The notes under the pieces are model-generated. The model made no database searches. It was not told the origin of the DNA and saw nothing but the letters and a program-made list of their open reading frames with translations. 64,000 nt of DNA, taken from an uncultured Pelagibacteraceae bacterium (GTDB lineage: Bacteria > Pseudomonadota > Alphaproteobacteria > Pelagibacterales > Pelagibacteraceae). Shown here piece after piece: positions 15,586 to 59,601 of the stretch. The number at the start of each line of letters is the position of its first letter. The stretch's first letter is position 1. The position numbers and the translations under genes are program-made. The DNA lies in contig CACLYO010000002.1 of NCBI GenBank assembly GCA_902611145.1, positions 62,001 through 126,000 on the forward strand, given 5' to 3'.

Positions 15586-15610
15586 TACCTCTCATATAAT
15601 CAAAATTCAA

Positions 15611-15640
15611 AAGCCCCCAATTAATGGGGGCTTTTTTTTT
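15611..15640 (+). terminator. Rho-independent terminator after groEL
   Basis: AAGCCCCCA-attaa-TGGGGGCTT followed by a T run. Confidence 0.93.
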
Positions 15641-26460: not shown

Positions 26461-26490
26461 AAAGGGCCAGATTTGTTCTGGCCCTTTTTT
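26461..26490 (+). terminator. Rho-independent terminator after NCS2 permease
   Basis: AAGGGCCAGA-tttgt-TCTGGCCCTT followed by a T run. Confidence 0.92.
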
Positions 26491-55221: not shown

Positions 55222-55773
55222 ATGGAAAACATTAAAGTTTTACAAAGTCAAAAAGTAATTAAATCTTTAATAATAGTAATTCTAAGCTCTATAATTCTTA
55301 CAATTTCTGCAAAAATAAAAATACCTTTTTACCCAGTACCAATGACAATGCAAACTTTTGTAGTATTATTATTAGGAATCAGTTTTGGTTATAGAATTGC
55401 AATAGCTTCAGTTGGGCTATACCTTTTAGAGGGAATTTTAGGACTACCAGTATTTTCTAATTCACCTGAAAAAGGAATTGGAATAGTTTATTTTACAGGG
55501 CCAACGATGGGTTATTTAATAGGTTTTTTATTTGCATCTTTTTTTTCAGGTTATTTAAATTTTAGAACAAATATTTTTTTAATCTTTTTAAAACTTATTT
55601 TTTCAGTTTCATTTATTTATATTTTTGGAATAATTTGGCTAGGAACTCTGATAGGTTGGGATAAACCTATTATTCAATTAGGTGTTACACCTTTCTTATT
55701 AGCAGAATTATTTAAAATTCTTCTATTAACTTTTTTAGCAAAAAAAATTTTAAGTTTTAGAAAATTTATTTAG
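55222..55773 (+). CDS. bioY: Biotin transporter BioY
   Basis: KIPFYPVPMTMQTFVVLLLG, GLPVFS, GPTMGYLIGFLFA. Confidence 0.92.
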   Translation: MENIKVLQSQKVIKSLIIVILSSIILTISAKIKIPFYPVPMTMQTFVVLLLGISFGYRIAIASVGLYLLEGILGLPVFSNSPEKGIGIVYFTGPTMGYLIGFLFASFFSGYLNFRTNIFLIFLKLIFSVSFIYIFGIIWLGTLIGWDKPIIQLGVTPFLLAELFKILLLTFLAKKILSFRKFI

Positions 55774-56323
55774 GTGACCTTTTAGACAAAATTCTTTGCA
55801 AAGTTCTTCTGTGCATTTTTAATCTTCTTGCAGTTTCAGAAACATTTCTATTACAAAGTTCAAAAACTCTGTGTATATGCTCCCACTTAATTCTATCTGC
55901 TGACATTGGATTTTCAGGTGGTTTAGCTTTTTCATTAGGATCGGCAAGTAATGCTTTTTCAATGTCCTCAGCATCGGCTGGTTTTGCAAGATAGTCTATT
56001 GCTCCTTGCTTAATTGCTTCAACTGCAGTTGGAATATTTCCATATCCAGTTAACATTATTATTTTGCAATCTGGATTAACAGATTGAAGCTCTTTAACAA
56101 ATTCAAGGCCATTTCCATCATTCAACCTTAAGTCTACTACTGCAAAATCTGGTTTCTTTGTCTTAATTTGTACGATTGCTTTTTTTACACCCTCAGCTTG
56201 TGAAACTAAAAACCCTTTTTTTTCCATTGCTCTTGCGAGCCTATCCCTAAAAGGATTATCATCATCCACAATTAAAAGTGATTTATCCTTAAAATCACTT
56301 ATTTTTTGCAAGCTATTATTCAT
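55766..56323 (-). CDS. regA: RegA/ActR/PrrA-type response regulator with Fis-like HTH
   Basis: LLIVDDDNPFRDRLARAME, KPDFAVVDLRLNDGNGLE, NVSETARRLKMHRRTLQRILSKRSP. Confidence 0.92.
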   Translation of the reverse strand: MNNSLQKISDFKDKSLLIVDDDNPFRDRLARAMEKKGFLVSQAEGVKKAIVQIKTKKPDFAVVDLRLNDGNGLEFVKELQSVNPDCKIIMLTGYGNIPTAVEAIKQGAIDYLAKPADAEDIEKALLADPNEKAKPPENPMSADRIKWEHIHRVFELCNRNVSETARRLKMHRRTLQRILSKRSPK

Positions 56324-56376: not shown

Positions 56377-56382
56377 TATAAT
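56377..56382 (+). promoter_or_regulatory. Candidate -10 element (TATAAT) of the ODC leader
   Basis: TATAAT at 56377 with TTCAAC at 56354-56359, 17-nt spacing. Confidence 0.4.
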
Positions 56383-56426
56383 AAATACTTTACATTGCCG
56401 TTCATTTCTCATAATCAGGGGGTTAA

Positions 56427-56468
56427 TTAACAAATTTGCATATTAGATATGCAAATTTTTTTTGTTAA
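56427..56468 (+). terminator. Terminator-like hairpin inside the ODC 5' leader (putative attenuator)
   Basis: AAATTTGCATAT-tag-ATATGCAAATTT (12-bp perfect stem) followed by T run; flanking TTAAC/GTTAA can extend the stem; located between predicted promoter and RBS. Confidence 0.7.
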
Positions 56469-56490
56469 ATTTTTTTTGAGGGGCTAAAAA

Positions 56491-57669
56491 ATGAAAAAAT
56501 TTAAAAGTGTTGATGAGCTTGTAAATCAACTTAAGCCTTCTAATCCAGTTTACTGTATTAGAAAGCACACACTGGAAAAAGCATCTAAGTTCTTTCAAAA
56601 GAACTTTAAAGGGAAAATTCTTTACGCTGTAAAAACTAATCCAAATGAATTTATTTTAAAAACTCTGTTTAATTCAGGTATTAATAATTTTGATATAGCT
56701 TCAATAAAAGAAATAGAAATAATTAAAAAAATTGTACCAAAAGCTACTTGTCATTACATGAATACAGTTAAAAGTAGAGAAAATATAAGTGAAGCTTACT
56801 TTAAATATGGAATAAAATCTTTTTCACTAGATACAAAAGATGAACTAGTTAAAATTATTGATGCAACCAAGAATGCAAAAGATTTAGAATTGTTTGTAAG
56901 AATTTCTATATCTAATGAACATGCAGAAATTGACTTATCTAAAAAATTTGGTTCACTACCAAATGAAGCAGTTGGCCTATTAAGGCTTACTAAGCAATAT
57001 GCAAAAAAAATTGGATTAAGTTTTCATGTTGGCTCTCAATGTATGCATCCAATTTCTTATGAAAAAGGAATTGCAGAAATTGGAACTATAATTAAAAAAA
57101 CTAAAATTTCTCCTGATTACATAAATATTGGAGGTGGTTTTCCATCAATTTATCCAGATCTAATTCCACAATCCTTAAAAAAGTATTTTGAAAAAATTAA
57201 AAAAAGTCTTGCAAATTTAAGGCTTGAAAAAAAACCTGAAATTATTTGTGAACCAGGAAGAGCTTTAGTGGCGGAAAGTGGTTCTACAGTTGTGAAAGTA
57301 ATTTTAAGAAAAAAACAAAAACTTTATATAAATGATGGAACTTATGGATCTTTATTTGATGGTGGCGTTCCTAATTTAGTTTACCCTTCAAAAATTATTA
57401 CTAATGGAAGAATAATATCAAAAAAAATGACAGCTTATGATTTTTATGGTCCAACTTGCGATAGCATGGATTATATGAAAGGTCCTTTTGTTCTTCCAAA
57501 TAATGTTAAAGAAGGTGATTATATTGAGCTAGGACAACTAGGTGGTTATGGTTTAACATTTAGAACTCAATTTAACGGATTCTACTCTAATGATATTTAT
57601 GAGGTCGAAGATAAACCTATAATGTCTATGTATGATAATGACATAAGCAGTGAGTTCCTTGTTGCCTAA
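56491..57669 (+). CDS. Ornithine (or lysine/ornithine) decarboxylase, fold type III PLP
   Basis: ILYAVKTNPNEFIL PLP-lysine motif, SFHVGSQC, INIGGGFPS, CEPGRALVA, GPTCDSMD. Confidence 0.92.
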   Translation: MKKFKSVDELVNQLKPSNPVYCIRKHTLEKASKFFQKNFKGKILYAVKTNPNEFILKTLFNSGINNFDIASIKEIEIIKKIVPKATCHYMNTVKSRENISEAYFKYGIKSFSLDTKDELVKIIDATKNAKDLELFVRISISNEHAEIDLSKKFGSLPNEAVGLLRLTKQYAKKIGLSFHVGSQCMHPISYEKGIAEIGTIIKKTKISPDYINIGGGFPSIYPDLIPQSLKKYFEKIKKSLANLRLEKKPEIICEPGRALVAESGSTVVKVILRKKQKLYINDGTYGSLFDGGVPNLVYPSKIITNGRIISKKMTAYDFYGPTCDSMDYMKGPFVLPNNVKEGDYIELGQLGGYGLTFRTQFNGFYSNDIYEVEDKPIMSMYDNDISSEFLVA

Positions 57670-58713
57670 ATGTCAGATAAAAAAAATCTAGGACATAATC
57701 GCAAAAAAGATTTTCTAAAAAAACCTGTCGAACATATTGATATCACTTCGTTTGATTCAAGAAATATTATTTCATCAATGGAAAAAATGTCATTTGTTGC
57801 TAGAGAAACAGCAAATGCGGCAAATATATTTAATGAAATGATAAAAGACAAAGATTGTACGGTTTTTTTAACTTTAGCAGGTTCCACATCTGCAGCAGGA
57901 TGCATGGACGTATATAGAGATATGGTCAAATATAACATGGTTGATGCAATAGTTGCTACTGGAGCATCAATTATTGATATGGATTTCTTTGAGGCACTTG
58001 GCTTTAAACACTATCAAGGTTCTCAATTTCAAGATGATACTGAATTAAGAAAGAATTATATTGATAGAATTTATGACACTTATATTGATGAAGATGAATT
58101 ACAAATGTGTGATAAAACCATATGTGATATTGCAGATAATTTAGAGCCCAAAAGTTACACGTCAAGAGAATTTATTAAAGAAATTGGGAAATATTTAAAA
58201 TTAAATTCTAAAAAAAAAGGTTCGTTAATTGAGACTGCCTATGAAAATAATGTCCCTATCTTCTGTCCTGCTTTTACTGACTCAAGCGCTGGATTTGGCT
58301 TGGTTATACATCAAGAAAAAAATCCAAAAAAACATATTACGATAGACTCAATTAGAGAGTTTCGTGAACTAACTGAAATTAAAATTAAATCAAATGGTTC
58401 TGGTCTTCTAATGATTGGAGGAGGTGTTCCAAAAAACTTTATTCAAGATACTGTAATTTGTGCTGAACTTTTAGGAAAAGATGTAGAAATGCACAAATAT
58501 GCTATTCAGATAACAGTTGCAGATTCAAGAGATGGTGCCTGTAGTAGTTCAACTTTAAAAGAGGCAAGCTCATGGGGTAAAGTTGATGTAACTAAGGAAC
58601 AAATGGTTTTTGCAGAAGCAACAAGTGTATTACCTTTAATAGCTAGTGACGCGTATCATAGAGGTGAGTGGAAAAAAAGAAGTAGAAAAAATTTTTCAAA
58701 AATATTTGGATAA
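57670..58713 (+). CDS. Deoxyhypusine synthase family protein (probable homospermidine-synthase-like)
   Basis: TLAGSTSAAGCMDVYRDMV, VATGASIIDMDF, PIFCPAFTDSSAGFGL, SSWGKVDV with the catalytic-lysine context of DHS. Confidence 0.85.
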   Translation: MSDKKNLGHNRKKDFLKKPVEHIDITSFDSRNIISSMEKMSFVARETANAANIFNEMIKDKDCTVFLTLAGSTSAAGCMDVYRDMVKYNMVDAIVATGASIIDMDFFEALGFKHYQGSQFQDDTELRKNYIDRIYDTYIDEDELQMCDKTICDIADNLEPKSYTSREFIKEIGKYLKLNSKKKGSLIETAYENNVPIFCPAFTDSSAGFGLVIHQEKNPKKHITIDSIREFRELTEIKIKSNGSGLLMIGGGVPKNFIQDTVICAELLGKDVEMHKYAIQITVADSRDGACSSSTLKEASSWGKVDVTKEQMVFAEATSVLPLIASDAYHRGEWKKRSRKNFSKIFG

Positions 58714-58716
58714 AAA

Positions 58717-59601
58717 TTGAATTACTTATCAAATAAATCAGGATTTTTAGGGATTGATAATAAGTTCAGCTTTAAAGAAAAGGCTGTTGTAATCCCATTT
58801 GGCCTAGAAAAAACAGTTAGTTATGGTGGTGGTACTAAAAATGGACCCAAAGAAATTATTAAAGCATCTCACCAAGTAGAATTATACGATGAAGAATTAA
58901 ATTGTGAACCATATAAAAAAATTGGAATCAAAACCTTAAAACCATTCAAAATTGATAAAAATATAAAATTAGCACTTAAAAAAATTTCAGATATTAATTC
59001 AAAAATCTTAGATAAAAAATTATTTCCTATAACTTTTGGAGGAGAGCACTCAATAACCCCAGGATGCATTGTTCCATTTGCTAAGAAATTTAAAAAAATT
59101 TGTTTATTGCACTTTGATGCACATGCAGATTTAAGAGAAAGTTATAATGGTGAAAAATTTTCACATGCATCTGCAATTAAAAGATGCTTGGATCATAAAA
59201 ATGTTTCTGTAATATCCTTCGGCATTAGAAATATTTCTAGTAGTGAAATTCCATTTTTAAAAAAAAATTCTAAAAGAATTAATATTTTTTGGGCAAAAGA
59301 TAAGGCTAAATGGAATTTAATAAAATTCAAAAAATTAATTAAAAATAAAACTGTATATTTAACTTTTGATGTAGATGGTTTCGATTCAAGCGTAATGCCA
59401 GCAACTGGTACTCCAGAACCAGGTGGGTTATTATGGGATGAAACCCTAGATATAATTAAAATAGCAGCTAAAAACTCAAATATAGTTGGAGCTGATATTA
59501 ATGAACTTGCTCCTATAAAGGGTTTTAATTCTTACAATTTTTTAGTAGCTAAATTAGCTTACAAAATATTAACTTATAAATTTTTGTTTAAGCAGCTTTA
59601 A
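58717..59601 (+). CDS. speB: Agmatinase/ureohydrolase family protein (TTG start)
   Basis: FGGEHSITPG, HFDAHADLRESY, TFDVDGFDSSVMPATGTPEPGGL metal-binding motifs. Confidence 0.88.
   Translation: MNYLSNKSGFLGIDNKFSFKEKAVVIPFGLEKTVSYGGGTKNGPKEIIKASHQVELYDEELNCEPYKKIGIKTLKPFKIDKNIKLALKKISDINSKILDKKLFPITFGGEHSITPGCIVPFAKKFKKICLLHFDAHADLRESYNGEKFSHASAIKRCLDHKNVSVISFGIRNISSSEIPFLKKNSKRINIFWAKDKAKWNLIKFKKLIKNKTVYLTFDVDGFDSSVMPATGTPEPGGLLWDETLDIIKIAAKNSNIVGADINELAPIKGFNSYNFLVAKLAYKILTYKFLFKQL

Follow-up and report, generated by a model that had tools for sequence, protein, structure and literature searches.

The gene for an ornithine-decarboxylase-type enzyme (ODC) of the ocean bacterium Pelagibacter (SAR11; Pelagibacteraceae) is very probably preceded by a conserved leader RNA that is specific to this gene, and the previously uncatalogued hairpin at its centre, P1, probably acts as a built-in brake on ODC. 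We tentatively regard this leader as a new cis-regulatory element, namely a leaky transcription attenuator with an added translational layer, a reading to which we give somewhat less than even confidence. Few kinds of cell on Earth are as abundant as SAR11, and their regulators are few in number. A leader attached to the gene with which polyamine synthesis begins, present in nearly all Pelagibacter genomes sampled, would offer a tangible site of control over polyamine supply that lends itself to testing. According to work on polyamine use in SAR11, transcriptional regulation of carbon oxidation functions is often missing in these bacteria, and nitrogen limitation does not upregulate their polyamine enzymes (PMC8437039).

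The window (the whole stretch of 64,000 nucleotides that was analysed) belongs to contig 2 of its genome. It carries ODC on the + strand (56491–57669; Pfam PF02784 and PF00278, ornithine being the presumed specific substrate). The ODC stop codon lies immediately 5' of the ATG of an abutting deoxyhypusine-synthase-like gene (57670–58713, + strand; PF01916), which is followed by an arginase/agmatinase-family gene (58717–59601, + strand; PF00491; TTG start as listed). These two genes likely share the transcript of ODC. The region downstream of ODC (57670–59601) is a polyamine gene cluster. A second decarboxylase-family protein, possibly LysA-like and 32% identical to ODC, is encoded on contig 4 of the same genome (30822–31889). 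Upstream, regA, which encodes a RegA-type response regulator (55766–56323, − strand), is divergent from ODC, as it is in 131 of 131 loci of the genus and in all 76 other loci that include enough upstream DNA. Since regA is divergent in every locus, no + strand transcript comes from upstream for P1 to end, and the view of the earlier note that no + strand gene is there to be terminated therefore holds in all genus loci examined. The conservation of the regA–ODC pair in 207 of 207 family loci makes it an unusually stable neighbourhood and hints at shared control.

The leader is compact. Downstream of a GGGGG motif (56418–56422), P1 (56432–56458, + strand) consists of a 12-bp perfect stem with arms AAATTTGCATAT (56432–56443) and ATATGCAAATTT (56447–56458) that enclose a 3-nt loop. 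It runs into U tract 1 (56456–56463, + strand), a terminator-like tail of eight T, the first three of which pair with AAA at the base of P1. A linker GTTAAA and U tract 2 (eight T, 56470–56477) together occupy 56464–56477 of the + strand. They are followed by the Shine-Dalgarno sequence GAGGGG (56478–56483, + strand), which appears as a G-rich motif in the alignment, and by the ODC ATG at 56491. The perfect stem, T run, GGGGG, GAGGGG and ATG all lie where the earlier note had placed them. This layout is common to almost all ODC leaders inspected in the genus of the window: P1 directly abuts U tract 1 in nearly all of them, and in 97 distinct leaders of the genus each U tract measures 7–10, most often 8.

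ODC loci were drawn from about 200 family genomes and from 80 named genome records. The alignment comprised 66 distinct leaders, two of which (L007 and L027) come from the near genera g14 and g11. The stem is kept in these 66 leaders, and 9 of the 12 P1 pairs display compensatory double changes, so that the covariation and the conservation in relatives on which the earlier note had made its proposal depend were both found. Double changes occur in 150 cells of the alignment, versus 56±9 after shuffling and no more than 53 after sliding the partners; as the sequences are related, the counts from shuffling cannot be read as probabilities. Folding of the leader is more favourable than that of shuffled versions (z −3.1), and the stem regions have a median of −5.4 kcal/mol, versus −0.7 for letter-shuffles. 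Among non-Watson-Crick cells of P1, G·U (70) vastly outnumbers A·C (1), which indicates that the + strand RNA is what folds and argues against a DNA palindrome. Such a palindrome, bound by a transcription regulator such as the adjacent RegA, would agree with the presence of a regulator gene next door and with the recurrence of TTGCATA...TATGCAA in part of the genus. However, the stem sequence turns over completely between subclades (TTGCATA...TATGCAA in some, AAAGTTTTT...AAAAACTTT in others) while pairing, position and U tract are kept. Only a + strand RNA explains both this persistence of pairing through sequence change and the G·U/A·C asymmetry; a DNA operator is thus largely refuted and very improbable. 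These comparisons show P1 to be a conserved structure of the + strand RNA that is linked to ODC.

A conserved promoter on the + strand (56389–56415) precedes P1, with TTTACA (56389–56394) as −35 and CATAAT (56410–56415) as −10. In 165 distinct upstream sequences of the family, an invariant TT[T/G]ACA box and an A/T-rich −10 are found at a fixed spacing; as the alignment was anchored on TT[T/G]AC, four letters of the box (T, T, A and C) are constant by design of the search. The TATAAT-like −10 previously proposed (56377–56382), which a consensus scan also picks out, has to give way to CATAAT. Transcription would start near 56421, in which case P1 begins about 10 nt downstream and the leader measures only about 70 nt. 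In L106, L107 and their relatives, a perfect inverted repeat, CATAAATGC-T-GCATTTATG, spans the predicted −10 and start site of ODC; it was found in one subclade and could be an operator.

The leader is almost exclusively associated with ODC. Among 197 genomes, the block T8-RTTAAA-T8-GG (at most 2 mismatches) is essentially confined, within the genus, to the 5' side of this gene, whereas a reversed control pattern stays at background. A covariance model made from the 66 aligned leaders (R1) was run on 247 genomes of the order. It gives one strong match in the window's own genome (79.5 bits, the next best reaching 31) and matches 148 of the 159 sampled genomes of the genus, once in each except for one genome that has a second, weak match. 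Outside the genus, weak matches occur in 3 genomes of one sister genus. Wherever a genus genome was covered by both searches and has a full-length ODC, the R1 match lies at the ODC start (48/48). Of the eleven genus genomes that lack a match, three were checked for ODC (G154, G192 and G194), and these have no full-length copy.

P1 and U tract 1 have the arrangement of an intrinsic terminator, a hairpin followed by a U tract. In the window they reach 24 on the d'Aubenton Carafa rule; scores in the genus run from −34 to 31, with a median of 14.5. On the same rule, two hairpins at operon ends in the window reach 63–65. These reference terminators (15609–15635 and 26461–26487) lie at gene ends and have 11 bp, including 6 G-C pairs each. 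With only 2 G-C pairs, P1 falls short of the strength of the terminators of this organism, and having fewer than 3 explains why the consensus terminator scan missed it. As eight U easily satisfy the Carafa rule, a positive score is weak evidence of termination. The leader nevertheless has the organization of an attenuator: a terminator-like hairpin in the leader of its own gene, a conserved promoter 5' of it and no transcript entering from upstream. The most natural use of P1 would be as a weak, leaky terminator or as a pause that lowers ODC transcription.

No conserved or otherwise supported candidate for a mutually exclusive antiterminator was found in the 66 aligned leaders. The extended pairing TTAACAAA/TTTGTTAA, put forward earlier as an alternative structure, keeps at least 4 of its 5 pairs in only 9 of the 66 rows and was rejected as not conserved. 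Control of the terminator by translation of a leader peptide, as in attenuators of the enteric speF or trp type, would find some basis in leaders that hold a short ORF over the U tracts, such as MQVFFV. However, these ORFs lie in various frames, begin at different places and are of unequal length; many leaders lack one altogether and no ORF is conserved, which makes this mechanism hardly credible. Sister genera have no terminator at the corresponding place, and the terminator form therefore appears to be limited to Pelagibacter and the genera closest to it. The attenuator proposed by the earlier note thus stands as to the kind of element, a regulatory leader with a conserved hairpin, a U tract and no upstream gene; as a terminator it is weak by the rule applied and restricted to the genus.

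Leaky attenuation is favoured by the covariation of P1, its abutment on U tract 1, the single match per genome at ODC, the absence of an upstream gene, the conserved promoter and the positive score. It is opposed by the gap between 24 and 63–65, by the absence of a terminator in sister genera and by the lack of a conserved antiterminator or leader peptide. The following course of events can be proposed. RNA polymerase would start around 56421 and would have made P1 and U tract 1 within about 40 nt. Acting as a weak intrinsic terminator or pause, they would abort a share of the transcripts. This partial abortion would hold down ODC and probably also the deoxyhypusine-synthase-like and arginase-like genes. 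In the RNA that is read through, U tract 2 could pair with codons 2–5 of ODC, leaving the Shine-Dalgarno sequence and AUG in a loop and thereby adding a second, translational brake. Termination by P1, formation of this second helix and a response of either step to a signal such as the polyamine level are what we infer; a possible sensing of polyamines or ornithine is suggested by the function of the ODC gene.

The leader resembles several known RNAs without belonging to any family searched. In the window and in the loci of 20 relatives, Rfam models gave only chance-level matches at gathering and loose thresholds, and no family of known riboswitch aptamers matches the ODC leader. The speF RNA (RF00518) lies upstream of ODC in other Alphaproteobacteria, its sequence conservation starts near the putative start site and none of the metabolites tested bound it (PMC1273637). 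Kinship with this RNA, a question raised in the earlier note, is not supported: its covariance model gave no match above cut-off in the window, in 41 genomes of the order or in the loci of the 20 relatives. RF00518 also differs in having 153 model positions, with a large bulged stem-loop element and about 80 conserved nucleotides, whereas the whole SAR11 leader measures about 70 nt. The speF leader of Salmonella (orf34), another ODC 5' leader, combines premature termination with a hidden ribosome-binding site; unlike that of SAR11, which has no conserved ORF and a terminator of intrinsic type, it is several hundred nucleotides long, carries a 34-codon ORF and relies on Rho-dependent termination (PMC6386406). 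The spermidine riboswitch, a SAM-I variant, also governs polyamine synthesis genes through premature transcription termination, but it carries a full SAM-I-type aptamer (PMC10853860), and the SAR11 leader is too short to accommodate a separate aptamer. Like intrinsic-terminator attenuators in general, the ODC leader has, between its promoter and its gene, a hairpin set directly against a U tract; it differs from them by a very A+U-rich stem about 10 nt past the start site and by the lack of a conserved antiterminator. The rhtB-associated element of Candidatus Pelagibacter ubique is likewise a single conserved SAR11 hairpin, often followed by 6–9 U and considered a possible terminator or regulator (PMC2704228), but both its gene and its sequence differ. 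The survey of structured RNAs in P. ubique that described it mentions no ornithine, polyamine or ODC leader (PMC2704228). The ODC leader was also unreported in our literature searches, most subscription journals being outside their coverage.

The translational layer would rest on a candidate helix, P2, whose 5' arm UUAAAUUUUUU (56465–56475, + strand) is an exact 11-nt complement of ODC codons 2–5 (AAAAAAUUUAA, 56494–56504, + strand). This leader-codon complement is the longest among the 62 genes of the window, the next being 8 nt. The mean complementarity is 9.8 nt in the genus versus 5.9 after shuffling, and 7.2 versus 5.6 in other genera. Codon choice is constrained as well. Codon 3 is AAA and codon 4 is TTT in all 50 non-redundant ODC genes (50/0 each); F4 is the sole column without TTC among 17 conserved Phe columns and K3 is one of 3 columns without AAG among 26 Lys columns, while codon 5, the third base of which is unpaired in P2, is AAA in 28 genes and AAG in 20. 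The exceptional and above-shuffle complementarity, together with the lack of synonymous variation at codons 3 and 4, supports a translational layer and makes P2 formation plausible. On the other side, the P2 pairs are invariant, so that covariation neither supports nor refutes them, and folds that enclose the start are common in this genome, ODC ranking 16th of the 62 window genes. Start-codon enclosure as measured by folding was accordingly discarded as non-discriminating; synonymous changes of codons 3 and 4 do not lower it either. A pairing of the Shine-Dalgarno sequence with a TGCTC/TATGCC stretch, spotted by eye in several leaders, was also rejected: the stretch overlaps or abuts the predicted −10 and is therefore probably absent from the transcript. 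Together with P1, the two U tracts and the A tract within codons 2–5 might even form a compact and possibly triple-stranded (U·A-U) fold, which would define a new, minimal class of polyamine-responsive RNA. This reading is improbable; if true, polyamines would stabilise the fold directly and switch ODC off, and sister genera would carry a rearranged form.

Structured ODC leaders look like a trait of the family. In genera g2 and g4 the promoter is retained, and the hairpin near the transcription start is of a different design: AAGGUUU...AAACCUU or AAGCUU...AAGCUU, with a U-RUUAAA-U block in the loop. The pairing of this hairpin reaches 15.1, versus 13.1±0.4 for permuted partners (0/300 as good), and includes covarying pairs. 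In g2–g4, UGUGU...ACACA or variants flank the Shine-Dalgarno sequence, with some compensations in g3; permutations were as good in 7 of 300 cases in g3 and g8 and in 0 of 300 when pooled. The retention of a covarying hairpin near the start in sister genera, and the position of P1 about 10 nt past the predicted start, would also suit a 5' stem that shields the mRNA from 5'-end-dependent decay, as in ompA, with no sensing involved. This role is unlikely, as it requires neither U8 right behind the stem nor a conserved second U tract, and the A+U-rich stem is weak at 37 °C (median −5.4 kcal/mol).

A translational component is favoured above all by structured leaders looking like a family-wide trait while the terminator is absent from sister genera. 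A serious rival, though a less probable one, is a reading in which translation alone is controlled. P1 and the U tracts would then give the start region its structure or serve as a binding site for a U-preferring protein, such as Hfq or ribosomal protein S1, pairing around the Shine-Dalgarno sequence and AUG would set the level of ODC translation and the resemblance to a terminator would be incidental. Consistent with it, sister genera retain promoter, near-start hairpin and U-RUUAAA-U block without a terminator and pair UGUGU with ACACA around the Shine-Dalgarno sequence; within the genus, U tract 2, which has no part in termination, is as well conserved as U tract 1; and ODC combines leader-codon complementarity with biased codons. 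However, P1 is consistently placed right against U tract 1 in the genus, which translation alone does not need. P2 lacks covariation and, as judged by folding, an enclosed start is nothing exceptional in the genome. UGUGU/ACACA is nearly invariant in g2 and g4 and may be kept as sequence. A leaky attenuator with an added translational layer remains the preferred reading. In L208–L266 and L053–L068 (g2, g3 and g4), the region from about −75 to +1 of ODC comprises the near-start hairpin, whose loop contains U-RUUAAA-U, and a pair UGUGUAA...ACACA that is strongly conserved around the Shine-Dalgarno sequence; the leaders of these sister genera possibly constitute a distinct leader RNA family of their own.
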